Part shown: positions 1 through 14,536 of the stretch, piece after piece | How the letters are laid out: every line of letters begins with the position of its first letter | How positions within the stretch are numbered: position 1 is the stretch's first letter | Source: Thermoplasmata archaeon | GTDB taxonomy: Archaea; Thermoplasmatota; Thermoplasmata; UBA184 | Length of the DNA stretch: 14,536 nucleotides | Reading direction: 5' to 3' | Assembly (NCBI GenBank): GCA_030064695.1 | Contig: JASHYV010000074.1 | Coordinates: forward strand, 1-14,536 | The notes under the pieces: model-generated | Seen by the model: the letters and a program-made list of their open reading frames with translations, nothing else | Database searches by the model: none | What the model was told of the DNA's origin: nothing | Translations under genes and position numbers: made by a program

Positions 1-3000
1 ATCAACGGCGGCGTGCCCCGCGATGCGTTGTAACTGGTATTCCGACCAAGGAAGATCGCCTGGCCGAACGGCGAGTCGAGGAACTGTTCCCTCGGGATCA
101 GGAACGCGTTCAGCCCCGGGGAGAGCGTGATCCCGGAGCTATTCCCACCCCACGGCAGCGGGACCGAGCCGGACGAGATCGACGTCGAGGCGCTCACCAC
201 GACCAGGTCGAACGACTGCTCGCCGGTGTACCGCTCGAGGCCGACCGGGAGGCCGTTGACGGTCGAGTTGTCCGTAGGCAGCCAGAGCCACGTCGGGGCC
301 TTGACCCCCATAGGAACCTCCTGGAGCACCCCATAAAGGGTCGAAGTGCCGCCGCTCCCACCGCCGGGTAAGTCGATCACCGCGGGGGCCGCCTCCAGCA
401 GATTGTACGTGACGTTCACTTCGAGCTCGTTGCTGCTGTCGAGGTGGGCGGGCTGAGGCCAGTCGGAGAGGTCCTTCGAGACCTCCAGCGAGATCGTCTG
501 GTTCTCCTGGGTCTGCGTTACGGGCAGCGTGGTGTTGTAGTCCTTGACGGTGGCGTTCGTCGTGTTATCGACGATCGCCTCCGTCGACCAGTTGTCCACG
601 TGGATCGCACGCCCGGCGTCGTTGGTGTAGTTGTCGAACATCCGCACTGCGTAGCCCGTCTGCCCCGGTTCCCCGCTCAAGTTCGCATATACCGAGCCGA
701 ACTCGAGGCCCACGTCGTACAGCGGATTGACCCGCTCGCCGTCGGCGATGCCGTCGTCAGGTGTAGAGGTAGCGAGCGGGTCCGCGCCCCAGGAGAGCTT
801 GCCTTCGACCGTGAGGGTATCGACGCCGTCCCACTTGCCCTGGATCGCGCGCAGCCAGCCGGAGTCCCGGACTGCGGAGAGATTCGAGAACGTCTCGAGC
901 GCCGAGTAGCTCCAGAGCACTTCCGCTGCCCACGGTGAGCCGTCACCACTGTACCGGCCCCCGGCCGCCGTCGCGGTGACGTTGGACAGGTAGGGACTAT
1001 TCGGGTCCACCGGGCTGCCGCTCTCGTAGAGGTCATGGGAGTACTCGAGCCCCGACGCGTACGGGTCGTAGAAGCCCTGCTCGTCCCAGATCTCGAGGTC
1101 CGATGTCGTGGGAAGTTCGTAGCCCGGGTCCGCGAACGTGAGGTTCCAGGTGTCCAGCATGCCGCTGCCCGCCGTGTCGACGGAGTTCGGGTTCAGGTCG
1201 TACTCCTTCTCTACGTAGTCGCCGACGAGCCCGTTCGTCGCGTACTCCGCCGGGTTGGCATACGCGAGCTCGGTCTTGGACGCTCCCGTCACGTTGGTGT
1301 ACGCCACCGTCCAACCGAGTCCCTTCTCGAGGTTCGTCAATCCGTCCCCGGTCGAGTCCGGGAGGTAGTCGAAATACACCGGCACGCTGGTCACGTCCAG
1401 CGGCTGCCCGCCGCTCGTGTAGTTGAGGTCGACCCAGACCGCATAGCTCGTGTTCATCGTCGGCAGGGAGAGATCGTTGATGATCCCATAGCCCGGGCTC
1501 TGCGACGACTCGAACTCGGAGGTGTTCGTCAGCGGGAGTTCCACGGTCGCCGAGCTGTTCTGCCAGAAGAGCACCCCGTCCTGGAACTCGGCCCTCTGGG
1601 ACAGGGAGGTCGGCATCTGCCAGAGGATCGACTCCCCTCCCCCCGACTCGGTGATCGAGTCGTAGGGATCGCTCCAGTCGGTCAGGGTGAGTACGCTCGG
1701 CGTGTCGAAGAGGTACTGGGAACTCCACATCGACTTCTCGATGCAGCCGCTGGCCACCCCGACACCGACCGAGTACCGGTAGACCGCGAAGTCGTCGAGC
1801 CCGTGGAGCACCACCGAGTAGTTCCACTGGCTCCCGTCGGCCAGGCCGGGGATGCCAGTGACCGTGAAATTGAGACCGGTCCCATACTCGTAGTACGCGA
1901 CCTCTCCCAAACCCGACTCGTTGGCGGTCCATTGGATCTCCTCCGTCGACGTCGATACCTGCGACGCCGTTGGAGTCGAGAGCCGGATACCGGGCGGCGC
2001 TAACGTGAAGCTGCAGCTCGCGGTCGCCGTCTGGGCCGGCTCGGAGTAGGTGTCACTGAACGAGATCGCCGGTCGGTACGCCGACGAGTACGTCCCGGTC
2101 GCGCTCCGGGCAACTACCGTCGCCGTGTACGAGCCATTGGGGAGGTCGTTGAACGGCTGCGACACCTCGGAGATCGCGTACTCGCTGTTCGGCCACGAAT
2201 TCGAGGCTCCCCCGGTCTCGTTGAGCCAGATCGTGTCCGCCGCCAGCATCGTGTTGTTCCAGTAGGCGACCAGGGTCGCCTCGGCTCCCCCGTCGGTGTA
2301 CTGGACATTCAGGAACTTCGCATTGCTCGGGGTCGTCGGCGTCACGTCGACGCCCAGCGTCGACACCGTCCAGCCGCTTAGCGAGCCCGAGATCGATCGG
2401 GGTCCCAGCGTGTCGGGCCAGAACACGGAGGTCGAGTTGATGTCGCACGCGTCCGAGTACTCGTGGAGGTACTCGACATACGAGGCCGCGAAGGTGCCGC
2501 TCCACGAGTAATTCGTGTAGGGCGTGAGGTTGGTCAGATACACCGACGGTTGGGCCGAGGTGCTCGGGAACGACGTCGTCCCGCCTCCGTTCACGGAGAT
2601 GTTCGACCACCAGTGCACCGGGACGCTATAGTACGTCCACGAGACCCCGCCCTTGTGCGTGCCGTCGTACAGGCACTGCTCGTCCTCGACGTTCGTGTAC
2701 TCGGGATAGTTCGGCGTCGTCGAGAGCTCCGAGTCCGCTGGGTTGAGGGGCGTCGGCGTCACCGAGACGCTCCATCCCTCCGAATCCACCGTGCCCCCGG
2801 TCGAGACCGTGTTCACTGGGGTCCAGTCGTCGACCGCGGAGAGCGACGGGACCAGAGACAGCGGGGAACTCGTGACGGCGAGGCCCAGCGCGTTCAGCAA
2901 CTGCGCCGCGGCCACCGCGAGGTAGACGTTCGGCGAGGCGATGCCGAGCGCGCTCGAGAGCGTGGAATTGCTCGCCGAGGACGAGCCGTAGGGCGTCGTC

Positions 3001-4808
3001 AGCACGATATGCGTCGCGGCCGGCACCGTCGTCTTCAACGTCTCGTTCTGCGCCGCCTCGAGCGCCGCGTCGGTGCCGCCCTCAAGGTCCGTGGACGTCG
3101 CGGTCACGGCGCTCGACGTGGACGTATTGAACGTCTCCTCCGAGCTGGAGTCGGCGGGGCTGAAGTCCGCCGTGACCAGCGGGTCGGTCAGGAGGTGGTC
3201 CAACTGGGCCAGCGACCGGCTCGCGGACAGGAAGTCGCCGGAATACTCGATGGCCGGACCCCCGGAGCTCGCCGGGTCGGTCCAGGCAAAGAGCGGTCGC
3301 CCCAACCAGTCCACCGAGACCGCCGGGGCCCCGGCGGAGTAGGCCGTGGCCGCGTCCCCGCCGCTCCCGGGCAGCGCGGCCACGGGCTGAAGCAGCGTGC
3401 CGTTCGCCGAATACACGGCCTGATCGACCTCCCAGCTCCCGTTGCCATTGTCCTCCCACGTCGCGAGGATATCTCCGTCCGGCTCCGGGACGACCGCCGG
3501 GTCCTGGATCGACCCGGCGGGCGGGAAGGCGACGTAGGGACCGGCCCAGTTCGTCCCGCCGTTCGGGGAGACCACGTCCTCGGCGACCACCCGGCCCTGG
3601 ACCCGGTTGGTGTACAGCACGAATAGGCTGCCGCCGACCGCCGTCGCGGCGACCTGGCCGACGGTCCCGCCTGCCGGATACAGCATGGTGTCGCCCACCT
3701 GATCGAGCACCGCCGACGTCGACGTCGTGTTCAGCGTGGCCACGATCGTCGCGGAACCGAAGGATGCTCCACCGTTCGTGGATACCCACACCGAGACCGC
3801 TCCCGTCGTGGGGTTTGACGCGGCGATCACCGCGTCCATGCCCGCGGTCGTGGGGACCCAGGCCGCGCTGGAGTTCTGAATATTCGAGCCCGCGAGCGCG
3901 TGGTCCCCCACCAATCCCCCGGTCAAGGAGAACCCGTACACGTCGAGCGATCCCGAGTTCAGCGCACTGACTAGGACGGTCTCCGAATCGGCCGTGAGGC
4001 CGGCAATCGTTCCGGCTACCGACCCGAGCGTGGTGACCGTGTCCCCGCCGTTCGTGGTGGTCAGGAGGGTGGTCGTGATGCTGGGGGAGCCCCCACCGAT
4101 TCCATCCAGGCCCCCGCCGGAGATGTAACTGGTCGTCACGCCCGCCACCACGGTGTCACCGGTCTCGGCCAAGGCATCCGCCGTGATCGCCGGGCACGTC
4201 TCGCCGCACGAGCTCGACGCCGTGAAGATCTTGAGGGCGGTGTCCCAAGACAGGTACACGGGTTGCGTCGCGACACAGCTCGAGCCGCTTCCGCTGGCGC
4301 AGCGGGCTCCCGTGTACACCGCCGCGGCGTCGGCCGCGGAATACCCGCCGGTCGAGAGCCACAACTGCGTAGCCGAGTGGTTCGAGAACAGCAGGTAGTC
4401 GGATCCGGAGGCGCTCGACGCGAGCTGAACGTCGGTCGGAGCGGTAAACGGAGTGACGTTCGCCGGGAGCGGGTACTGCGACGGGGTCACGACATAGGGG
4501 TACTCGGGCGCGGGCGCCGGATTGGAGAGGTCCGTAGAGAGGTTCGAGGACGCGTACGGATCGGCTCCGGTCGGGCCGTGCGACGTGGTCGACGACGTGA
4601 CGAGTAGAATGAGCACACACAGCACGGAGAGGGAAACCGTGAGCCAGAACGGTAGCGGCCGAGCGGGCTTTCTCGGCCCATCCAGCGGCGAAGCGGGAGG
4701 CGCCGAGTCAGCTAGCGATGCGGAGGGGCACGGGTCCTGAGGCGACACCTCCGCGCCGCCCGCAACGCCGAGACCCGGTGCTTCGACATCTGCAGGTGCG
4801 GGAGGCAT
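1..4808 (-). CDS. Giant secreted or surface multidomain protein, incomplete at the C-terminus
   Basis: I translated this frame codon by codon on the minus strand. It has no stop from ATG 4808 to the left edge, giving at least 1602 residues. Residues 1-52 are Pro/Ala-rich and end in basic residues (PRKPARPLP). Residues 53-72 form a hydrophobic signal anchor. Asp-box-like motifs occur at about 252 (TNGGDTV), 343 (STNGGASF) and 414 (SPNGGTNW), which suggests a sialidase/BNR-type beta-propeller. Residues about 945-1035 resemble a fibronectin-III domain. Degenerate thrombospondin type-3-like calcium motifs lie at 1151 (DSTGDGLTNLE), 1204 (DLNPNSVDTAG) and 1351 (DDGIADGE). About forty NxS/T sequons are visible, and C170, C178, C201 and C205 could form disulfides. 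Function is unknown; a glycosylated cell-surface or adhesion protein is inference. GTG at 4748 is an alternative start, preceded directly by GGAG. By eye, codon use is less GC-ending than in the AglB operon. Confidence 0.88.
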   Translation of the reverse strand, partial: MPPAPADVEAPGLGVAGGAEVSPQDPCPSASLADSAPPASPLDGPRKPARPLPFWLTVSLSVLCVLILLVTSSTTSHGPTGADPYASSNLSTDLSNPAPAPEYPYVVTPSQYPLPANVTPFTAPTDVQLASSASGSDYLLFSNHSATQLWLSTGGYSAADAAAVYTGARCASGSGSSCVATQPVYLSWDTALKIFTASSSCGETCPAITADALAETGDTVVAGVTTSYISGGGLDGIGGGSPSITTTLLTTTNGGDTVTTLGSVAGTIAGLTADSETVLVSALNSGSLDVYGFSLTGGLVGDHALAGSNIQNSSAAWVPTTAGMDAVIAASNPTTGAVSVWVSTNGGASFGSATIVATLNTTSTSAVLDQVGDTMLYPAGGTVGQVAATAVGGSLFVLYTNRVQGRVVAEDVVSPNGGTNWAGPYVAFPPAGSIQDPAVVPEPDGDILATWEDNGNGSWEVDQAVYSANGTLLQPVAALPGSGGDAATAYSAGAPAVSVDWLGRPLFAWTDPASSGGPAIEYSGDFLSASRSLAQLDHLLTDPLVTADFSPADSSSEETFNTSTSSAVTATSTDLEGGTDAALEAAQNETLKTTVPAATHIVLTTPYGSSSASNSTLSSALGIASPNVYLAVAAAQLLNALGLAVTSSPLSLVPSLSAVDDWTPVNTVSTGGTVDSEGWSVSVTPTPLNPADSELSTTPNYPEYTNVEDEQCLYDGTHKGGVSWTYYSVPVHWWSNISVNGGGTTSFPSTSAQPSVYLTNLTPYTNYSWSGTFAASYVEYLHEYSDACDINSTSVFWPDTLGPRSISGSLSGWTVSTLGVDVTPTTPSNAKFLNVQYTDGGAEATLVAYWNNTMLAADTIWLNETGGASNSWPNSEYAISEVSQPFNDLPNGSYTATVVARSATGTYSSAYRPAISFSDTYSEPAQTATASCSFTLAPPGIRLSTPTASQVSTSTEEIQWTANESGLGEVAYYEYGTGLNFTVTGIPGLADGSQWNYSVVLHGLDDFAVYRYSVGVGVASGCIEKSMWSSQYLFDTPSVLTLTDWSDPYDSITESGGGESILWQMPTSLSQRAEFQDGVLFWQNSSATVELPLTNTSEFESSQSPGYGIINDLSLPTMNTSYAVWVDLNYTSGGQPLDVTSVPVYFDYLPDSTGDGLTNLEKGLGWTVAYTNVTGASKTELAYANPAEYATNGLVGDYVEKEYDLNPNSVDTAGSGMLDTWNLTFADPGYELPTTSDLEIWDEQGFYDPYASGLEYSHDLYESGSPVDPNSPYLSNVTATAAGGRYSGDGSPWAAEVLWSYSALETFSNLSAVRDSGWLRAIQGKWDGVDTLTVEGKLSWGADPLATSTPDDGIADGERVNPLYDVGLEFGSVYANLSGEPGQTGYAVRMFDNYTNDAGRAIHVDNWSTEAIVDNTTNATVKDYNTTLPVTQTQENQTISLEVSKDLSDWPQPAHLDSSNELEVNVTYNLLEAAPAVIDLPGGGSGGTSTLYGVLQEVPMGVKAPTWLWLPTDNSTVNGLPVGLERYTGEQSFDLVVVSASTSISSGSVPLPWGGNSSGITLSPGLNAFLIPREQFLDSPFGQAIFLGRNTSYNASRGTPPL

Positions 4809-5091: not shown

Positions 5092-6072
5092 CTAGAACGA
5101 CCGGTGGATCGGCCGGTAGAACGCCGACTTCACGATCGGAGCACCGCCGTCCGGCGGGAACTGGACGCGGACGCCCGCGCAGCGGCCGAACATCGAGTAC
5201 TCGAGCGAGTACCAGAACGCCGTCCAGGTCCCGTTCTTCTCGACCGCCTCGCCGAAGTGGTACGTCTCCCGGACCGCTCCGGAGTGCGCCCGGGCGAGCG
5301 CGTACGACCAGTCGAGCGCCTCGCGCTCGGTGGTCGGCGCCCCGGTGTGCGCGGGCGCCACGAGCGGGGCGTCGACGGTGAACGGGCCCTCCACGATCCC
5401 CCGGCCGAGGAGGTACCGGGCCCAGGTGGTCTTGAGACGCCCGTTCTCGTTCACCTCGGAGATCAGGCCCCAGACGAACGGGCCGGTCGTCGGGATCACG
5501 GCGGCGTTGGGGCCGACCGACGCGGCGTGCCGTCCCACCGCGATCCGTCCCGCGGCTCGCGCCGCGAGGTAGATCACGAAGTAGACGGAGAGGGCATAGA
5601 CCGTGTCGACGTACAGCGCGAAGGCGACGTGGTTCCGCTCGATGCCGAGGAGCAGGTAGAAGGAGAGCGCCGAGAACGCCGTCATGAACAGGTTCACCGC
5701 CCGGTCCGCGTCGAGGCGCAGCAGCTTCTCCGAGAACGGAAGGAGCGGCGGCACCGCGAAGTTCGTGAAGCCGTCCAGCGCGATGTGCGTCAGGCCGCCG
5801 ATCTCCATCACGATGAAGTAGACGATCGGGGAGCCCGGGGCGATCAGCGGCGCGATCAGCGCCCCGCCGACGGCGATGCCGGTCACGCCCACGAAGGAGT
5901 GGGTGATCCCGCGGTGCCGGAGCAGCGGGAACCGCCGCGCCAGGAGGAAGAACAGCGCGTCCGCGTCCGGGAGACCGCCCGCGAGCGCGCCGGCGGCGAG
6001 GTACTGGGGCTGGAACCCGAAGAGGCCGAAGGTGACGAGGTAGGCGAAGAGGACGTGCGTGAGGAGGTCCAC
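5092..6072 (-). CDS. YdjM/DUF457-family membrane-bound metal-dependent hydrolase
   Basis: This is a 326-residue polytopic membrane protein of the LexA-binding inner-membrane-associated hydrolase family (YdjM, DUF457). The family is predicted to be zinc-dependent, but its substrate is generally unknown. Likely metal ligands are visible in the family order: H6 in DLLTHVLF, LPDAD with D36 and D38, RGITHS with H58, and HIALDGFT with H96 and D100. Several hydrophobic segments span residues about 1-175. A soluble domain follows from about 190 and ends YRPIHRSF. The start is GTG at 6072, chosen because it places the conserved His at residue 6. The gene is last in the operon, 16 bases after ef1b, with no Shine-Dalgarno in that gap, so translation may depend on coupling. 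The family assignment is strong; a role in lipid or envelope metabolism would be inference. Confidence 0.88.
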   Translation of the reverse strand: MDLLTHVLFAYLVTFGLFGFQPQYLAAGALAGGLPDADALFFLLARRFPLLRHRGITHSFVGVTGIAVGGALIAPLIAPGSPIVYFIVMEIGGLTHIALDGFTNFAVPPLLPFSEKLLRLDADRAVNLFMTAFSALSFYLLLGIERNHVAFALYVDTVYALSVYFVIYLAARAAGRIAVGRHAASVGPNAAVIPTTGPFVWGLISEVNENGRLKTTWARYLLGRGIVEGPFTVDAPLVAPAHTGAPTTEREALDWSYALARAHSGAVRETYHFGEAVEKNGTWTAFWYSLEYSMFGRCAGVRVQFPPDGGAPIVKSAFYRPIHRSF

Positions 6073-6088
6073 GGCGGTCGGGAGGGCC

Positions 6089-6355
6089 CTAGAGGAGCCC
6101 CTCCTCCATCACCTCGACGGACTCGACGTGGGGGATCTTCGCGAGCGCCTGCTCGGTCGAGTCCAGCACGCCCCCGGTGTCGTCCATCACGACCGAGACG
6201 AGGAGCGACTTGAGCCCGAAGGCGATGTCCTTCACCTGCATGCCGCGGATCGTGACCCCCTTGGGCACCGAGGTGCGCACGGTCTCGGCCACGGCCTTCA
6301 GATCGGTCTCGACACCCTGGGGCATCAGCCGGAACAGGACGGCGACCTGACCCAT
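6089..6355 (-). CDS. ef1b: Archaeal elongation factor 1-beta (aEF-1B)
   Basis: This 88-residue protein is the guanine-nucleotide exchange factor for aEF-1alpha. It replaces GDP with GTP so that the factor can again deliver aminoacyl-tRNA to the ribosome. It matches the family end to end: the start MGQVAVLFRLMPQG, the core IAFGLKSLLVSVV and the ending IPHVESVEVMEEG. The length is the usual one for the archaeal single-domain form (about 88-90). ATG 6355 is preceded by GGAG (6362-6365) with a 6-base spacer. The gene starts 12 bases after the stop of the zinc-ribbon gene, an association I recall from many euryarchaea. A 6-bp perfect hairpin covers its last codons. The product is cytoplasmic. Confidence 0.95.
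   Translation of the reverse strand: MGQVAVLFRLMPQGVETDLKAVAETVRTSVPKGVTIRGMQVKDIAFGLKSLLVSVVMDDTGGVLDSTEQALAKIPHVESVEVMEEGLL
6092..6106 (-). other. Perfect short hairpin over the 3' end of ef1b
   Basis: The plus strand reads GAGGAG-CCC-CTCCTC, a 6-bp perfect stem with a 3-base loop. It sits on the last five sense codons of ef1b, directly before its TAG. In the mRNA it would lie about 20 bases upstream of the GTG start of the hydrolase gene, which lacks a normal Shine-Dalgarno. It could affect coupling or mRNA processing, or it may simply result from the codons for E-E-G-L-L. Confidence 0.4.
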
Positions 6356-6367
6356 CGAGCGCTCCGC

Positions 6368-6562
6368 CTACGGGCCTTCGAAGCCGCACCGGGGGCAGTG
6401 GTACACGACGCTCTGGTCGCGACACCGGGCGTGCCGGCCGATCCACTCGGCCCCGCACTGCGGACAGAGGAACTGCGTGCCGCCCGGGGCCGGAAGGACC
6501 GCGCCGCACGAGGTGCAGCGCAGCACCCCGGCGGGCGGGCTCACGGACGCAGCGCTCGACAT
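6368..6562 (-). CDS. Small CPxCG zinc-ribbon protein (HVO_2753/DUF1610-like)
   Basis: A 64-residue cytoplasmic protein with two zinc-binding knuckle pairs: C16-x2-C19 with C33-P-x-C36-G, and H44-x2-C47 with C56-P-x-C59-G, ending GFEGP. This layout and ending match the small archaeal zinc-finger family typified by Haloferax HVO_2753, which is commonly encoded beside aEF-1beta. Its molecular role is not established; RNA or ribosome association has been the usual guess. The start ATG 6562 follows GAGG (6566-6569) and lies 8 bases after the upstream stop. A longer frame from 6664 exists, but it overlaps the previous gene and its extra residues look non-natural. The odd point is His at position 44, where family members normally have Cys. 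Confidence 0.88.
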
Positions 6563-6570
6563 GATCCTCG

Positions 6571-7410
6571 TTAGCGGCGCGCGACCCCGCGCCGGCGCGC
6601 GGCCACCCGAGTGAGCCATATAAAGAGCACGCCGAAGAACGCCACGACCCCGGCGATGTACCACAGCTCGTAGTTCGTCGGCGCGGGCGCCACGTAGAAC
6701 GACTCCGAGAAGACCAGCGAGCCGTTGGCGAACGTCACGAGCCCGCGCTCGGGGACGAGCGAGATCGTGAACGTGTGCCAGCCCGGCGAGAGTCCGAGGG
6801 TCACGTACGAGAAGTTGAGATGGTACGTGCCGCCCGCGGTCATCGACGGCACCGTCACGTTGCCGACCGACGTGCCGTCGAGCGAGATGTTGAGCGTGAA
6901 CGCCATCAGGTCGGCGATCGACCGATCGAAGAGCGTCGCCGTCAGGAGGTACGGCTGCACGACGTGCACCGTGTAGGTGAAGTTGATCGACGCGTTCGTG
7001 CCGTTGTACGTCGACGAGATCATCACGTCGATCGTGAGGATCTGGACGATCGCGTTCACCGTGAGGTTCGCCATCGGCGAGACGCCGTCCGTGATGTTGT
7101 TCCGCGTCGGCGAGAAGATGACGCCGGTCGTGTTCGTCCCGACGACGTTCACGTAGTACGAGAGGTTCCCGACCTTGGTGCCGTCCGAGGCGTAGGCGGG
7201 TCCGCCGGACCCGTTGATGTAGTAGCCGCCGGACCCCGAGATCCCCAGCACCGTCGGACCCTGGATGGTGCCGTTCACCGGCGTCGAGCTCGTCGTGAGC
7301 GCGAGGCCGGGGGTGCGGGGCGTCGGGGCCGCGAGCGCCACGGTGGCGACGGTGCCGACGAGCAGGAGCGCGAGCACCGCGAGGGTCAGGGAGGCGAACC
7401 GACGGCTCAC
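6571..7410 (-). CDS. Signal-peptide, membrane-anchored sequon-rich protein coupled to AglB
   Basis: I do not recognise a named family for this 279-residue protein. It starts at GTG 7410 with a textbook signal peptide (basic SRR, then a hydrophobic run of about 18 residues, cleavage likely after ALA at 27). A beta-rich extracellular region of about 220 residues follows, with about thirteen NxS/T sequons. One membrane segment lies at about 249-268 ([17 protein letters not shown]), and the cytoplasmic tail is strongly basic ([12 protein letters not shown]). The topology is therefore type I, mostly outside the cell. The start overlaps the aglB stop as GTGA and is preceded by a strong GGAGGT with a 7-base spacer, so it is translated with AglB. 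An accessory or scaffold role with AglB is inference from that coupling. It could instead be an unrelated envelope glycoprotein. Confidence 0.85.
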
Positions 7411-10400
7411 CGCTTCCACCTCCGCGACCGGTTCCACCGGTACAGCAGCACGAGGCCGATCAGCGCGAGCGCCGGCACGAAGACGAGCACCGGCACCAGC
7501 CAGTCGGGGATCGGCGACGGGGTGCCGATCGACGGCCCGGTGACGGTGAGCGTGTCCCCGTGCGCTCCCGACGTCGAGACCGAGCCCCACGGCACGAGGA
7601 TCGTGGCGGTCGATTGGACGGCGCCGGTCGCGTTCACGACCGTCGCCGAGACGGTCACGTTGCCCGGCGCGACCCACGCGGAGCCGGTCGCGTTCAGGAC
7701 GACGAGCCAGGTGCCGTTCGTACCCGCGGGCAGGTACTGGGTGGGGCTGTTGGAGGTCGAGTTGACCCGCTCGATCGAGACCGACCAGCCGAAGCCCGCG
7801 AGCCGGTAGGAGTTCACGACGTTCACCGTGACCGTCTCCCCCTGGTTCCCGGTGTTGGCGAGGTAGAACGGCACGTCCGCCACGCTCGGCCCGATCTCCG
7901 CGGGGTACGACTTTCCCGGCGAGCCGACCGCGACGCCGTAGTAGCCGACCACGTTCACGACGGGCAGCGGGCTCACGGTGCCGACGATCGTGCCGGAGCC
8001 GGTGGCGAACTCGATCGCGACCGTCGGGTGCTGGACGTAGGTGCCGCGCGGGATCGAGATCGTGACGGTGCCGCCGACGACCCCGCCGTTCACCGGCAGC
8101 GTGACGTTGGCGAAGTCGAAGTTGAACGGCCAGTAGGCCGGCGCGCCGACCGGGTGGACGGTGATCGGCTCGTTGCCGCCGTTGCGGACGTTGAACGCGA
8201 ACGTGACGTTCGTCCCAGCCGGCGCCGTCACCGACGTCTGGCCCACGAGCGTGACGATCGCCTTCTGGACGTACTGGTAGGCGAGCGACACCGTCGTCCC
8301 GATGTTGCCGGCGACGATCGAGGCGGTCGCGGTGCCGTTCGCGTAGGCGAGCGCGCCGTACGGACTGCCCCGGGCGGTGCCCGTGACGGTGTAGGTGCCG
8401 ACCGGGAGCGCGATCTGGACGGTCTGCCCGACCGGCACGGACGGGTAGACGGTCGAACGCCCGTAGGCGTCGAACACCGACAGGTTGACGGCGGAGAGCG
8501 ACACCGCGGAGCCGTTCGGCGCGGAGGCGGAGATCGTCGCGAGCCACGTGGGCGCGAGCGGCAGTTGGACGGAGCTCGACGACGTCGAGAGCACCACGAG
8601 CCGCGAGAAGTTCGCGAGCAGGTCCGTGACGCCGCCGCCGGACGCGTAGACGGAGTAGCTGCCCGGCAGCAGGAGGACCGAGAACGTCCCGGCGGACGAG
8701 GTGTTGACGACGGTGAGGTTGGTGTACGGATACGGTCCGACGAGACGCACCGTTCCCGAGACCGGGCCGCCGTTCCCGGGCGCGAGCAGGGTGCCGTTCA
8801 AGTAGACCGGCAGGGTCGTCGAGCCCATCGTCACCGAGCAGCTGGGGGAGCTCGAGGTCGGCGTGCAGGTGGCGCTCGCCGCCGTCTGCCACAGCGCGGA
8901 GTACGTGCCGTTCGGCCCGGCCACGTTCGTGGTCACGGTCGCGTTCACCCCGTAGGTCGCCCCGAGCGGCAGGACGGCGCTGAAGTTGCCGTTCGTCACG
9001 CTCTCGGGCACCACCACCCCGGCCGAGGAGGTGAGGCGGACCGTGGTGTCGACGTCGAGCGAGCTCCCGCTGGGACGTAGCAACGTCCCGCTCACGGTCC
9101 CGGCGGAGGCGGAGATCGCGATCGTCGGCGTGATCTTCCCGCTCGAGGGGACGGCGGCGGTGACGAGCGTCGCGTAGAGGTTCCCTCCCACCGTCACGTT
9201 CGCGTAGACCGAGTACGACCCGGCGGCGACGCGGAAGCCGGTCGTGTAGATCGAGCCGTTGACCGAGACGGTGAGCGTCGAGGAGGTGAGCTGGACGGTC
9301 GTGGCGGAGATCTGGCCGCCGGAGGGCAGCGAGAGGGTACCCGAGACGTTCACCAGCGCGGAGAGGGGCACCGAGAGGGTGTACGCGGTCGTTCCGAGCG
9401 GCAGCGAGAACGTGAAGTTCGTCGCGAGCCGATGGATGACGGTCCAGTTGCCGGTGTTGGCGAAGGCGCTTACCCGGTACGTGCCCGGAGCGACCGTCCA
9501 CGAGCTGCTGGTCCCGCTCGAGATCGCCCGGGTGGTGGCCGGCAGGCTCAAGGCGGTCAGGTTCACGAGCGCGGTCGTGCCGCCCGGGAGGCCGGAGATC
9601 GAGACGGTCAGCGCGACCGAGTGGAGCGAGAGCGGGAAGACCGAGAGACCCGAGAGGCCGTTCGACGAGTAGCCGCACGCGGAGGCGGAGCCGAAGCCGG
9701 TCGCCGACGACGCGACGCAGTACGAGCCGGCGGTCACCGGCAGCTCTGAGGGCACGTAGACCCCCACCCCTCCCGTCGCGTTCGCGTAGCTGGGCACGGT
9801 CGCTCCCGAGGCGCCGAAGGAGACCGAGGTGAACGCCGAGGCGGCCGGGAACAGCGTCCCGTTCGCGAGCGGCGAGCCGACCGAGAACCGGACCGCGGTG
9901 GCGGTCGACGGCGTGAGGGAGAGCGACTGGGGGCCGGTGAGCGTCACCTGTCCCAACGCGGCGTAGAGGCCGACCGCGGTCGAGACGTCCCCGCGGAGCG
10001 CGAGCACGGAGTACGTCCCGCTCGGCAGGTAGAACGTGAAGTTGCCGGTCGAGTTGTTCGCGGCCGCGACCGAGAGCGATCCGTTCACGGCGTAGGCCAG
10101 CACCTCCGTGCCGGTGGCGGCTCCGGACGGGCCTCCGGCGCTGACGCTGCCCGCGAGCCGCTGGGCGGCGGAGAGGCCGAGCGAGACGAGCGTCGTCGCG
10201 CCGGCCGACGCGTTGGTGGTCGTGAGACCGGCCTCGAGGGTGCTCCCGACGTACCCGAGTGCGTAGACCGAGTACCGGCCGACCGGCAGCGTGGCGGTCG
10301 CGACCCCGTTCGACGCCGTCGTGACGACCGTCCCGTTGCCGACGTCGCCCTGTAAGGTCGAGATCGGAGAGACCGAGGCGTTCGAGAAGTCCGGGTACGG

Positions 10401-13400
10401 GATGAACCGGACCGGCACGCCGGAGACCGGGGTGCCCGCGGCGGTCACCGACACGGAGACGGAGGCGCTCGGGAGGAGCGTGAGATCGAGCGTGATGTTG
10501 CCGCCGAGGCTACCGATCTGGGCGAACCCGCCGAGGGACCGGAGCGAGGTCCCGGGCATCGACGCGATGACGGTGTAGTTCCCCGGTCCGAAGCCGGAGA
10601 CGGTGTAGTTGCCCTTCGGCCCCGTCACGTTCGAGACCGTCACGCCGTTCCCGATGACCGTGACCCGGGCCCCGACCACGTTCGCGCCGTTCTCCGTGAC
10701 CGTCCCGTGGACGCTGCCCGCGGAGAGGCCGTAGGAGCTGTTGGTCGGGGAGCTCGGGTTGGTCGTGATCGGGGACTCGGTGAAGTTGTACCGGCCGGCG
10801 ACCACGCTCACGTTGTAGGTGCCCGCCGGGACGTTCGGGAGGTAGAAGGTCCCCGAGAGATCGGTCGTCGCCGTGATCGCGCTCTGGTTGCGGAGCCCCC
10901 AGAGCACGACCTTCGCGCTGGAGACCGCCGACTCGCCCGCCACGTAGGTCGTGTTGGTCCCGGTCTGCCAGTAGACCTGGCCCTGGACGACCGTCGCCGG
11001 GACCGAGGTGGTCATCGCCAGATTCGGCGCGGCGTAGCTGAAGCCGATCGCGTTGGGCACGTCGATCTTGATGCTCTTCACCAGGACCGAGTCCTGCTGC
11101 GTCAGAGGGTCGAAGCTCCCCGCCGTGACGTTGACGGTGTCGTTCCCCGGCGGCAGGACGAGCGAATAGGCGCCCGTCGAGGAGGTCACGGTCGTCATGT
11201 GGGGGATGCCCCAACCGTCGTCGACCGTCACCCGCAGGCCCGCCGCCGGCGCCCCGTTCGGCAGCGTCAGGTCGCCGAGCAGCGTCTGACCGGCGTAGTA
11301 GACGAGGATGCTCTCGCCGCCCGAGAAGTAGGAGCCCGCGGAGAGATCGGCGGTTCCGTTGTACTCGGCCGCCAGCGCCTCGGCCTCGGGCCGGTTCGTC
11401 GCGTCGAAGCAACTCGAGCTCGACGGGGCGTTGGTCTGGTTGCAGTAGTAGGCGGTCTGGTACTCCACCTCGAAGTGCTGGAGCATCCAGCCCGGCTCGA
11501 TCGAGGCGTTGAGAGTCAGGCCCGGGATGCCCGGGCTCAAGCCCGCCTGCGTCCCGTTGTAGCCGAAGTAGATCCGGTAGATCATCGAGTTGTAGAACGG
11601 CGCGAAGTAGTTGATCGAGTACGAGACCGCCGAGACCCCGGCGGGCAGCGTCGCCGGCGTGTACGTGATCCCGTTCGAGCCGACGACGGTGACGTTGAAG
11701 TACGTGTCCGGCGAGCCGGACGAGTCGATGTACCGCCCGGTCAGCTCCGCCGGCGCGTAGTAGATGCCGGTGTCGTCGTAGCTGAACGGGATCAGGCGCG
11801 AGTCGGTCATCGCGTAGCGGATCGACTCGCCGGTGTACGACTGGACGTCGTTGTACACCCGCGCCACGCCGGAGAGCGGGAGCGCCTGCGCGATGTAGTA
11901 GGAGACCGCCATGAACATCGCGTTCTGGGTCGTGAGCGTCGACGCGTCGACGGGCAGGTACGTGTTCGGATCGTTGACGACCAGGTTGTAGTCGTACGAC
12001 CAGTTGTCGAGGTAGTTGTGGAGCTTCCAGAGGTTGAGGCCGTCCTGGGAAAGGATGGAGTTGAGGGACGCCGGGAGCGGGCCCGTGCCGTAGACGCCGT
12101 TCAGTAGCGTGGTCGCGAGCACGCCGATCGCGATCGACTCGTTCTGAGCGAGCAGGAACTGGCCGGCGGGGTCGATCCCGTTCTGGAAGTTGTCGGCGAC
12201 GCTGGGGTGCTGGCCCTGGTCGATCGCCTGGAACCCGTAGTCCCACCAGCTCACGAACGCGGGACGTTCGGGTTCGGGGATGTTCGTATCCTGCTGGGCG
12301 AGCCAATTGTAGCCGGCGCTATCGTACTGGTTCGGCGTGTCGATCGAGGAACCCGCCGCTCCGAAGTAGTAGGAGCCGGGGTCCGAGGTGTTGAGCTGGA
12401 GCCAGGACGGCAGCGTGGCCCCGACCTGAACGCCGTACTGGGTCTTGGTGTTCGACGGGATGCCCGCGTCGATGCTGACCCAGATGTTCGGCAGCAGCAG
12501 CGCGAGGATGAGCGCCATGATGAGGACGTGGCGGGCCTTGAACGCCTTGCGGAACGCCGTCAGCTGGCTCCGCCGGTCGGAGAGCGACGCGACGGTGCGG
12601 CGGAGCTCGGGATACGAGCCCACGTCCAGCGCCCGGCGGATCCCCTCCGCCGGCAGGAGCGCGAACGCCGGCGAACCGAGCAGGAAGAACTTCTCCGCGG
12701 AGATCGGGAGATAGATCGAGAGGACGGCGAAGACGACGAAGACGACGTGCACGCGCTTGAAGCGGCCGCGGACGAGCAGGTAGCCGAAGATCGCTAAGCC
12801 GACGAACGCGACGAAGAACGTGATCACCCCGTAGCCCAGGACGAGCGAGTCGACCGAGGGCGCCTGGGCCTCGGCGACCGTCGAGTAGACGAGCGTCTTC
12901 ACGAAGTAGCCCTGCCCGGTGATGACGGTGGTGAATAGGCCCGGGTTCACGATGGCGAGCCCGGCGGCCCCCGCGACGACGAGCCCGCCCATCAACGGGA
13001 TCGAGAAGACCCAAGGCACGTCGCGGAGCATCAGGAACGGCAGCAGGAGGACGAGCGTTCCGAAGTAGAGCAGCGCCTGGAGCACGAAGAACGTCTCAAA
13101 GCCCGAGAACGATCCCTGGTACTGGACGAAGTAGTAGGGCAGCTCCATCGGGAAGGCGATGAGCCCGACGATCCAGGCGCTCACGTAGAGCCCGAACGAG
13201 TCGACGTGGCGGATCCGCTCCGCGATCATCGAGATCAGGAGCGAGAGCGCGATGACCACGACGACGTAGGTGTACCCCTGCCAGGCGAGCGCCGTCGCGC
13301 CCATCGCGACGCCGGTGAAGACGGCCCATTTCACCGCCGTCCGCTCGGTCCGGAGGAACGCCCTGATCGCCGGCAGGAACTGCCGGGGCCGGCGGTAGCT

Positions 13401-13994
13401 CTCGACCCAGCGCCGGCTCCCGACCGCGCGTACGGTGCGGAGGTACGCGTAGACCGTGACCAGGATGAAGAAGGTGTAGAAGGAGAGGTAGTTCGCGTAG
13501 CCGAAGATCGAGGAGTCGATGTTCGCCGAGAGGAACGGGAAGATGAGCGCGGCGATGAGGCCCATCCGGCGGTTGCTGACCTCCTTGCCGATCAGGTAGA
13601 CGGGGAAGACCCCGAGCGCGGCCCAGAGGGGGGCCTGCAGGTCGAGGAACCACGCGCCCGCCGTGACGGCGTTGCCGCCGAAGAACGGGGCGAAGAGCAA
13701 CCCCAGGATCGCGTTCATCCAGTCGAAGAGCGGCTCGCGCGGGTTGATCGCGCCGACGGGGAACCGGAGGAGCGGATCGTGGACCAGGTTCGTGTGGTTG
13801 AGGATGATGTACGACATCACGCGCGAGTGGTAGTACGAGTCCGATCCGCCCGCGTAGCTGTACAGCGGACCCCACTGCGCGATGATCGGGTAGGTCCAGA
13901 TCGTGCGGATCGCCATCGCGGAGGCGAACGACGCGACCAGGATCGCCACCGTCCACTTGTGGCGACCCCACCACCCAGTCGAGCTCGATTCCAT
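7407..13994 (-). CDS. aglB: AglB/STT3 oligosaccharyltransferase fused to a giant beta-repeat ectodomain
   Basis: A 2195-residue membrane enzyme that moves a lipid-linked oligosaccharide to Asn in NxS/T sequons on the outer face of the membrane. Residues about 14-507 form the multi-pass STT3 core. They include the first acidic motif [10 protein letters not shown] (D52), the external-loop motif TVAE (372-375, like archaeal TIxE), and a last membrane helix near 488-507. The soluble catalytic domain carries SWWDYG at 582-587, the sequon-binding motif. From about 902 to 1880 come about eleven carboxypeptidase-regulatory-like beta repeats. Two NEW3/CARDB-like modules follow (about 1910-2145), then a C-terminal anchor (about 2165-2186) and a basic tail. 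Typical archaeal AglB has about 600-1000 residues, so over half of this protein is extra. The second acidic motif and a DK-type motif are not clear. ATG 13994 has only a distant GGAG (14 bases away). It is first gene of the operon, behind a TATA box. Confidence 0.93.
7418..7423 (-). promoter_or_regulatory. Strong Shine-Dalgarno that fixes the GTG start at 7410
   Basis: GGAGGT on the minus strand lies 7 bases ahead of GTG 7410, inside the last codons of aglB. This supports the GTG start and independent re-initiation at the GTGA overlap. It is the best ribosome-binding site in the window. Confidence 0.75.
8355..11291 (-). repeat. Protein-level array of carboxypeptidase-regulatory-like modules in AglB
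   Basis: Residues about 902-1880 of AglB hold about eleven diverged copies of a module spaced roughly 75-95 residues apart. Each begins with a strand like VSGTLxxPSG and ends with a motif like GTYSVYAxG or GNYTVIA. Clear endings include [12 protein letters not shown] (1056-1067), [12 protein letters not shown] (1236-1247), [13 protein letters not shown] (1323-1335), [14 protein letters not shown] (1502-1515), [10 protein letters not shown] (1591-1600) and [14 protein letters not shown] (1863-1876). These are typical of CarboxypepD_reg/SpaA-like prealbumin folds, used as stalks and adhesin stems. The copies are not similar at the DNA level, so the array is old rather than freshly expanded. About forty sequons lie in the ectodomain. 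Confidence 0.75.
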
Positions 13995-14116: not shown

Positions 14117-14536
14117 TCAGCGATCCGCACGGAACCGGTAGAAATACCGGCCGTCCCCGACGTCGTACGGCTCGACCCGCACGCGTTCCCCGACCGCCAA
14201 CTCGTTCCAGGCCCGGCCTTCGACGCGGCCGAAGAGGCGCAGCGGCACCCCGTCGAGGTCCACGAGCCCGACCGCGAACGGGATCTGGTCCTCCATGCCG
14301 AGCGGCGCCCCGGCGAGCACGGCGCTGAAGGCGTACAGCCGGCCGCTCTCGGGCAGGTCGACCCACTCGAGCTCGGTGCGGTGGCACTTCGGGCAGGCGG
14401 TCCGCGGTGGCCAGTGCAGGAGCGAGTCCGCGGCGCACCGCGTCGTCGACAGCCGGCCCTCCCGGAGCCGCGAGTAGAATCGGGCGAGCCGGGTGTCCTT
14501 GTCCGTCTCAAGAGGGAAGAAGTCGAGTAGGAACGG
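14117..14536 (-). CDS. DUF35 zinc-ribbon/OB-fold protein (acyl-CoA enzyme partner), incomplete at the N-terminus
   Basis: The last 139 residues are present; the frame is open to the right edge and no start is visible. The fragment begins PFLLDFFPLETDKDTRLARF and continues FYSRLREGRL, the usual DUF35 N-terminal helix. A rubredoxin-like zinc ribbon follows (C47, then HWPPR, then C60-P-K-C63 of the fragment), next ELEWVDLPESGRLYAFSAV, and an OB-fold to the end. Probably only a few residues are missing. In archaea this family scaffolds acetoacetyl-CoA thiolase and HMG-CoA synthase in the mevalonate pathway to isoprenoid lipids, by channelling acyl-CoA between them. Thiolase and synthase genes are therefore expected just beyond the right edge; that is inference. 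The first zinc knuckle reads C-A-A-D rather than CxxC. A terminator follows the stop directly. Confidence 0.88.
   Translation of the reverse strand, partial: PFLLDFFPLETDKDTRLARFYSRLREGRLSTTRCAADSLLHWPPRTACPKCHRTELEWVDLPESGRLYAFSAVLAGAPLGMEDQIPFAVGLVDLDGVPLRLFGRVEGRAWNELAVGERVRVEPYDVGDGRYFYRFRADR

Follow-up and report, generated by a model that had tools for sequence, protein, structure and literature searches.

A giant AglB homologue with a predicted membrane-anchored ectodomain in Thermoplasmatota: a candidate self-glycosylating component of the cell surface

Introduction

Archaeal AglB is generally treated as a single-subunit enzyme, and AglB-L of Archaeoglobus fulgidus, among the closest described proteins to the one considered here, is not known to have a coupled partner gene. 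AglB-L (3WAJ, 5GMY, 7E9S) has 875 residues, no added ectodomain and no second anchor. The 14,536-nucleotide stretch of a Thermoplasmata archaeon analysed in this work (contig JASHYV010000074.1), taken whole as the reference and called the window, encodes a giant AglB/STT3 homologue of 2,195 amino acids, to which all residue numbers refer. It falls with the AglB/STT3 oligosaccharyltransferases, to which it adds an ectodomain (the arm or stalk) and a coupled partner gene. Its catalytic motifs were located with the A. fulgidus residues named in excerpts of PMC8342417: Asp47, Asp161 with His163, Glu360, and WWDYG.

Eukaryotic STT3A and STT3B of the oligosaccharyltransferase (OST) complex have about 705-826 residues, against 2,195 in the window. 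The accessory functions of eukaryotic OST reside on separate subunits, whereas in the window they are possibly fused to the enzyme or encoded next door. NOMO, of the BOS complex, is a separate protein with a membrane helix and no catalytic part, whose string of similar modules stands at the eukaryotic multipass translocon near the oligosaccharyltransferase; the likeness lies in transthyretin/carboxypeptidase-regulatory-like (CPR-like) beta modules set in a string and may be common to the whole module family. Stalk proteins of the surface layer (S-layer) such as Sulfolobus SlaB share beta-sandwich modules and carry a membrane anchor, whereas the window giant has an enzyme attached and no known lattice partner. 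Cryo-electron microscopy of some relatives shows no S-layer lattice, according to parts of PMC12448462 and PMC10673518. In the former, as far as its excerpts go, Thermoplasmatales such as Cuniculiplasma and Oxyplasma have no S-layer and a dense, unordered, likely glycoprotein exterior layer about 20 nm thick, whose proteins are left unidentified; the link to AglB made below is a proposal only. None of the titles and abstracts listed from the open-access PMC literature concerned a giant or fused AglB in Thermoplasmatota.

A one-frame fusion widespread in Thermoplasmatota

The window protein is a one-frame fusion in which residues 1-1000 are homologous to AglB and the arm that follows, like the partner protein, has an excess of N-X-S/T sequons. 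In a clade that has lost the WWDYG motif this excess is absent, and both the giant and its partner gene are retained. The explanation that we consider probable is a self-glycosylating predicted oligosaccharyltransferase fused to a predicted membrane-anchored arm that has, together with its partner, a structural role at the cell surface. The AglB/STT3-family enzyme would N-glycosylate its own string of about 12 beta-sandwich modules, and the arm would loop out from the membrane and return to it. In a step beyond the data, glycosylated arms and partners would build part of an external glycoprotein coat. The protein would then be enzyme and coat component at once, and selection would keep the coat part once glycosylation is lost.

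The single frame proposed by the first-pass annotation is borne out by its relatives. A scan of genome contigs gave 346 of these, and 70 of the best 80, which were kept, form the window clade, including Candidatus Lutacidiplasma silvani and UBA184; the latter is assigned to the Lutacidiplasmatales group in an excerpt of PMC9287336. The gene is uninterrupted within its contig at 52 of the 70 loci (2,154-2,222 amino acids), cut by a contig end at 17 and frameshifted at one; that is, 52 of the 53 relatives lying wholly inside contigs keep one frame. The sole break, near residue 75 (L047:4732-11098), is a sequencing error or a recent mutation. An artefact as source of the fusion was rejected on frame, GC content at third codon positions and relatives.

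The addition itself was correctly recognized, but not its boundary. The AglB unit had been placed up to about residue 900, with about 1,250 residues added; alignment of the predicted model to A. fulgidus AglB extends the fold to residue ~1000 (996-999), leaving an addition of about 1,190 residues, in which about 12 predicted beta modules are followed by a membrane helix and then by a basic tail. The two CARDB-like modules and the anchor stand as annotated, and CPR-like modules number about ten by eye instead of eleven. The AlphaFold2 (AF2) model of the ectodomain is all beta (mean predicted local distance difference test score, pLDDT, 85.8), with a PF13620 match above cut-off. The predicted C-terminal helix and the conserved tail agree with the anchored external loop that had been suggested. 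The alignment of the window with its 52 uninterrupted relatives, the basis of all counts out of 53 below, is nearly gapless. Mean identity to the window per 50-residue block is 0.50-0.79 up to residue 950, 0.27-0.41 over residues 951-2150 and 0.54 in the last 45 residues, which indicates an architecture under strong length constraint with a variable stalk sequence.

The fusion had been thought unusual for the family, which the phylum survey does not support. The core profile matches 374 of the 389 genomes of Thermoplasmatota, and among the 150 matches listed 143 frames have at least 1,800 amino acids, six have 1,000-1,799 and one is shorter; the idea of a rare oddity was rejected, giant frames being common. 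Follow-ups covered 59 lower-scoring genomes and 54 genomes searched with a Methanoplasma-like query. The latter matched 39 of the 54, a set that includes the 15 genomes without a core-profile match, of which three gave a strong and one a weak match. These follow-ups added classes of about 1,030-1,430, 1,830-2,030 and 2,060-2,740 amino acids. Genomes presumed to be those of Thermoplasma volcanium and Cuniculiplasma divulgatum have giants of 2,079 and 2,106 amino acids, and those presumed to be Aciduliprofundum boonei and Methanoplasma termitum of 2,088 and 1,917 (stop-to-stop frames throughout); the presumed Thermoplasmatales genomes encode both giant and partner. Poseidoniales giants reach about 3,190 amino acids. 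Poseidoniales-type giants (L072-L080, L243-L246) have roughly 345-410 residues ahead of the AglB core and, when complete, about 2,150 residues beyond the end of the core profile (about 1,545 in the window). An ordinary copy of 910-1,004 amino acids is also present in some genomes (L164-L167), and a class of 1,170-1,430 amino acids (L155-L161) has WWDYG and no predicted C-terminal membrane helix. A stalk-only search gave 21 proteins, nine of them of 872-1,392 amino acids without a full AglB core (P0122, P0126, P0128, P0130, P0132-P0135 and P0138).

Catalytic motifs and sequon excess

The window protein has the overall oligosaccharyltransferase fold, with a multi-pass membrane part and an external C-terminal domain. 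It keeps D52 (GGSD), T372 and E375 (TVAE) and WWDYG, each present in 53/53, and WWDYG occurs in all 120 listed database relatives, the window among them. The second DXD motif is D-H-H in A. fulgidus AglB-L, in contrast to N-Y-L, a non-canonical reading, in the window. Residue 168 is N in 48 and D in five of the 53, residue 170 is L in 48 and Q in five; the five giants read D-Y-Q and Poseidoniales giants have ADHD at this position. The five giants with D168 and Q two residues on offer a natural pair for comparing this motif.

Residues 901-2150 of the window protein carry 43 sequons, against 16.8 +- 3.5 in shuffled sequences and 13 for the reversed pattern, and forward sequons outnumber reversed ones in the ectodomain in 53/53. 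Ectodomain means in the 120 listed WWDYG-bearing relatives are 35.1 forward, 13.5 reversed and 12.5 shuffled. WWDYG is found in none of 120 listed relatives of a Methanoplasma-like giant, and the 116 of these long enough for scoring have means of 13.3 forward, 12.8 reversed and 11.1 shuffled, forward exceeding reversed in 57. Among complete giants, forward sequons prevail in 92 of the 94 that have WWDYG and in 63 of the 122 that lack it. These last counts leave aside frames touching contig ends, below 1,700 amino acids or with short core matches, as well as the database relatives of the window, and their rows are related and so not independent.

The same difference extends to the surface proteome, surveyed with crude open reading frame (ORF) and topology rules in five genomes, each represented by the first 400 kb of a single contig. 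Surface-like ORFs have forward/reversed sequons of 111/43 (G003), 121/66 (G110) and 51/31 (G182) in genomes with an intact giant, and of 144/147 (G073) and 71/75 (G090) in genomes with a WWDYG-less one; the ratio in soluble ORFs is near 1 in all five. A sequon excess that tracks catalytic integrity supports the earlier suggestion that the protein is a surface glycoprotein and a substrate of its own enzyme. Judged by sequence, the window enzyme is probably active and the sequons of its ectodomain are probably occupied.

Retention of the giant without WWDYG

The retention of the giant where WWDYG is lost and the conserved partner gene are additions to the first-pass annotation. The WWDYG-less ("dead") giants belong to kin of Methanoplasma and Methanomethylophilus (Methanomassiliicoccaceae, Methanomethylophilaceae). 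None of six Methanoplasma-like giants (L149-L154) has the aspartate of the first DXD, a full TIXE or WWDYG; single TIXE residues survive in some, and the aligned sequence of L154 is blank at WWDYG. The 120 listed Methanoplasma-like relatives give 12 hits to a looser text pattern of the first DXD and none to TIXE. Methanomethylophilus alvi has a WWDYG-less giant of 1,936 amino acids (P0195) in a cluster of 339 sequences. A quick maximum-likelihood tree was built from 76 cores, with 24 of the 122 dead proteins as a sample; these 24 group together in a single clade on a long stem (SH-like approximate likelihood ratio test, SH-aLRT, 100), nested inside an otherwise intact group (SH-aLRT 97), which fits one loss. 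A dead giant matches the NCBIfam model of archaeal STT3 with E 4.1e-31, below the curated cut-off, and in several pairs the similarity between dead and intact giants passes the core (query residues 29-1557 for G226 and 29-1333 for G356).

PF02516 alone is too insensitive to conclude that a genome has no other oligosaccharyltransferase; it missed the known giants of G061, G065, G080 and G107, and the 14-base codon pattern of WWDYG was therefore used instead, with its reversal as chance control. The pattern is absent from 25 of 25 dead-form genomes (six read directly, 19 assigned by match to L149), and all 13 intact genomes have a single copy, located at the giant. Across 29 genomes with the 2,200-amino-acid form it is found once in 26 and twice in three, and the reversed control not at all. 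The second pattern in these three (G019, G232 and G289) is either another oligosaccharyltransferase or chance.

The downstream partner gene

The partner is a single-pass protein with a signal-like N-terminus, a CARDB module (24.2 bits, cut-off 22.7) and a C-terminal membrane helix. Of the 70 window-clade loci, 58 gave a match in a tblastn search with the window partner, as did 16 others. A partner-family gene lies immediately downstream of aglB in all 58 window-clade loci with at least 900 nucleotides past the stop. It also directly follows the giant in 18 loci from other, non-dead lineages and in 6/6 loci of the dead clade; the profile that detected these six, at E 5e-21 to 1e-36, had been trained on no dead sequences. 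Forward/reversed sequons of the partners are 541/195 for window-clade loci, 132/47 for the 18 loci of other lineages and 19/13 for the six dead-clade loci. Giant arm and partner may form a complex.

The partner gene is not next to 11 Poseidoniales-type giants with sequence past the stop (nine have another ORF there, two no ORF of 150 amino acids), nor downstream at L155, L156, L158, L161 and L235-L238; many other loci are too short beyond the stop for judging its presence. The next ORF in the nine Poseidoniales-type loci is unrelated and encodes about 410 amino acids.

Weighing the explanations

Since giant and partner are retained where WWDYG is lost, arm and partner would have a surface job of their own that outlives catalysis, for which a structural coat role is the simplest candidate. 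Several observations weigh against a self-glycosylating coat component. Sequon enrichment is not occupancy. The mostly N-x-L second DXD of the window clade removes two A. fulgidus metal ligands, and activity could thereby be reduced. L250 and L251 (G226 and G254), close relatives with intact first DXD, TIXE-type and WWDYG motifs, have fewer forward than reversed sequons (22/27 and 20/27), perhaps through a recent loss of glycosylation. Forward sequons of the WWDYG-less giants exceed shuffled ones in 87 of 116 (13.3 against 11.1), although their reversed sequons also exceed shuffles on average (12.8). Side classes of the surface survey deviate (26/48 for mixed, "other", ORFs of G110; 74/48 for multipass ORFs of G182), which shows that the crude ORF classes are noisy, and the WWDYG codon pattern has chance matches, its reversal occurring in nine places over the 38 dead-form and intact genomes. 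The orientation of the modules is uncertain in the AF2 model (predicted template modelling score, pTM, 0.48). Partner and anchor are not universal, since the Poseidoniales-type giants, L155, L156, L158, L161 and L235-L238 are partnerless and L155-L161 have no helix, and the nine short proteins among the 21 stalk matches may be contig-cut fragments or separate stalk genes. No exterior layer is reported for the window's order. M. alvi is described in excerpts of PMC10673518 as having no visible cell wall or S-layer and as lysing easily, yet it has a dead giant, which argues against a strong coat in this organism.

The main rival, to which we give a limited but real chance, is a NOMO-like substrate-handling arm whose beta modules hold secreted clients near the catalytic site or the Sec translocon. 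The arm is covalently joined to the enzyme, and the stalk profile has NOMO2 as its top PDB sequence match (9c7v, E 2.8e-26; next 6.3e-6). The window and a Poseidoniales giant also match the NOMO and EMC7 Pfam models weakly, below cut-off, and EMC7 or NOMO accessions are attached to many relatives. However, the score sums several NOMO repeats that all match modules 2-3, with no colinear match; the best single stretch reaches 34 bits, compared with 27 for an adhesin of bacteria; and the 50 fold matches listed do not include NOMO but consist of generic modules from pilins, adhesins and S-layers. The Foldseek rows of the stalk (TM-scores of about 0.04-0.3) say little beyond a string of Ig-like modules. 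Homology of the stalk to NOMO was downgraded after these alignment and fold searches. Moreover, the arm must do more than serve catalysis, as the giant persists in the clade without WWDYG.

That the arm tethers the enzyme to the S-layer, as first suggested, or is itself an S-layer stalk, appears very unlikely. Many unrelated adhesins score as high as SlaB. Cuniculiplasma is presumed here to have a giant AglB. Cuniculiplasma, Oxyplasma and Thermoplasma acidophilum, and with them most Thermoplasmatales, are reported without an S-layer in parts of PMC12448462, as is M. alvi, tied to a giant AglB by name, in parts of PMC10673518; Picrophilus is said to possess one in an excerpt of PMC5155288.

Least probable of all is that the window protein is a surface protein only, no longer an oligosaccharyltransferase after loss of the second DXD, with another enzyme glycosylating the arm: two metal ligands give way to N168 and L170, the catalytic motifs are entirely gone in a related clade and 3/29 genomes of the 2,200-amino-acid form have a second WWDYG codon pattern, but 26/29 have only one, the first DXD, TIXE and WWDYG are invariant (53/53) with D168 kept in 5/53, and sequons of a same-clade genome are enriched 2.58-fold in surface-like and not in soluble proteins, making an active oligosaccharyltransferase likely there.

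Layout of the locus

Table 1. Features of the giant aglB gene and its partner in the window.
Feature	Position	Strand	Remarks
Giant AglB/STT3 homologue	7407..13994	(-)	2,195 amino acids, ATG start, single frame; TIGR04154 E 1.5e-68
Residues 1-510, multi-pass membrane part of oligosaccharyltransferase fold	12465..13994	(-)	
First DXD motif, G50-S51-D52	13839..13847	(-)	D52 in 53/53 aligned; equivalent to A. fulgidus Asp47
Second DXD position, N168-Y169-L170 (A. fulgidus D161-H-H163)	13485..13493	(-)	mapped via profile alignment
TIXE motif, T372-V-A-E375	12870..12881	(-)	T372 and E375 in 53/53
WWDYG motif, residues 583-587	12234..12248	(-)	53/53
Residues 511-998, AglB external globular part, including beta module ~903-996	11001..12464	(-)	model against A. 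fulgidus AglB
Residues 999-2150, added ectodomain, N-X-S/T-rich	7545..11000	(-)	~10 CPR-like and 2 CARDB-like beta modules by visual count
Residues 2166-2190, predicted C-terminal membrane helix, then conserved basic tail (RRWxR)	7425..7499	(-)	AF2 helix; tail conservation
Partner gene, 279 amino acids	6571..7410	(-)	GTG start overlapping aglB stop (GTGA)
TATA-box-like sequence, ~50 nucleotides upstream of aglB start codon	14043..14052	(-)	by eye only

The upstream gene (14117-14536, minus strand) encodes a ChsH2-type zinc ribbon and OB-fold protein, which is matched in the flanking sequence of 46 loci. A downstream run (5092-6664, minus strand) encodes a small zinc-ribbon protein, an elongation-factor-like protein and a YdjM-family membrane protein; the second, which we take to be archaeal elongation factor 1-beta, is found in 58 loci. 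A 1,602-amino-acid ORF that runs off the window end (3-4808, minus strand) is predicted to encode another surface protein; it has 40 forward and 16 reversed sequons and matches the Pfam purple acid phosphatase N-terminal domain weakly, below cut-off. No plasmid match was found for the window.

Meaning for archaeal N-glycosylation and cell surfaces

The self-glycosylating surface component can be extended, tentatively and with the odds against it, to the proposal that giant AglB and its CARDB partner are the exterior layer of S-layer-less Thermoplasmatota. In the Methanomethylophilus/Methanoplasma lineage the enzyme would be dead, N-glycosylation of the surface proteome gone and the structure alone left. 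A beta module is roughly 4 nm long; an arm of twelve, fixed at its two ends, would reach a height of about 20-25 nm, by arithmetic and not measurement. Giant and partner would be a concrete candidate for the exterior protein layer left open in the excerpts of PMC12448462.

According to parts of a 2022 paper, all sequenced archaea possess AglB except Aeropyrum pernix and Methanopyrus kandleri (PMC8993221), and some Asgard archaea have homologues of eukaryotic accessory subunits. The partner may be an accessory protein for archaeal AglB. A methanogen clade that includes the human-gut isolate M. alvi keeps an AglB-derived giant without WWDYG, and the lack of surface sequon excess in two dead genomes (400 kb each) predicts a larger archaeal group without N-glycosylation, a loss that is directly testable in a cultured isolate.

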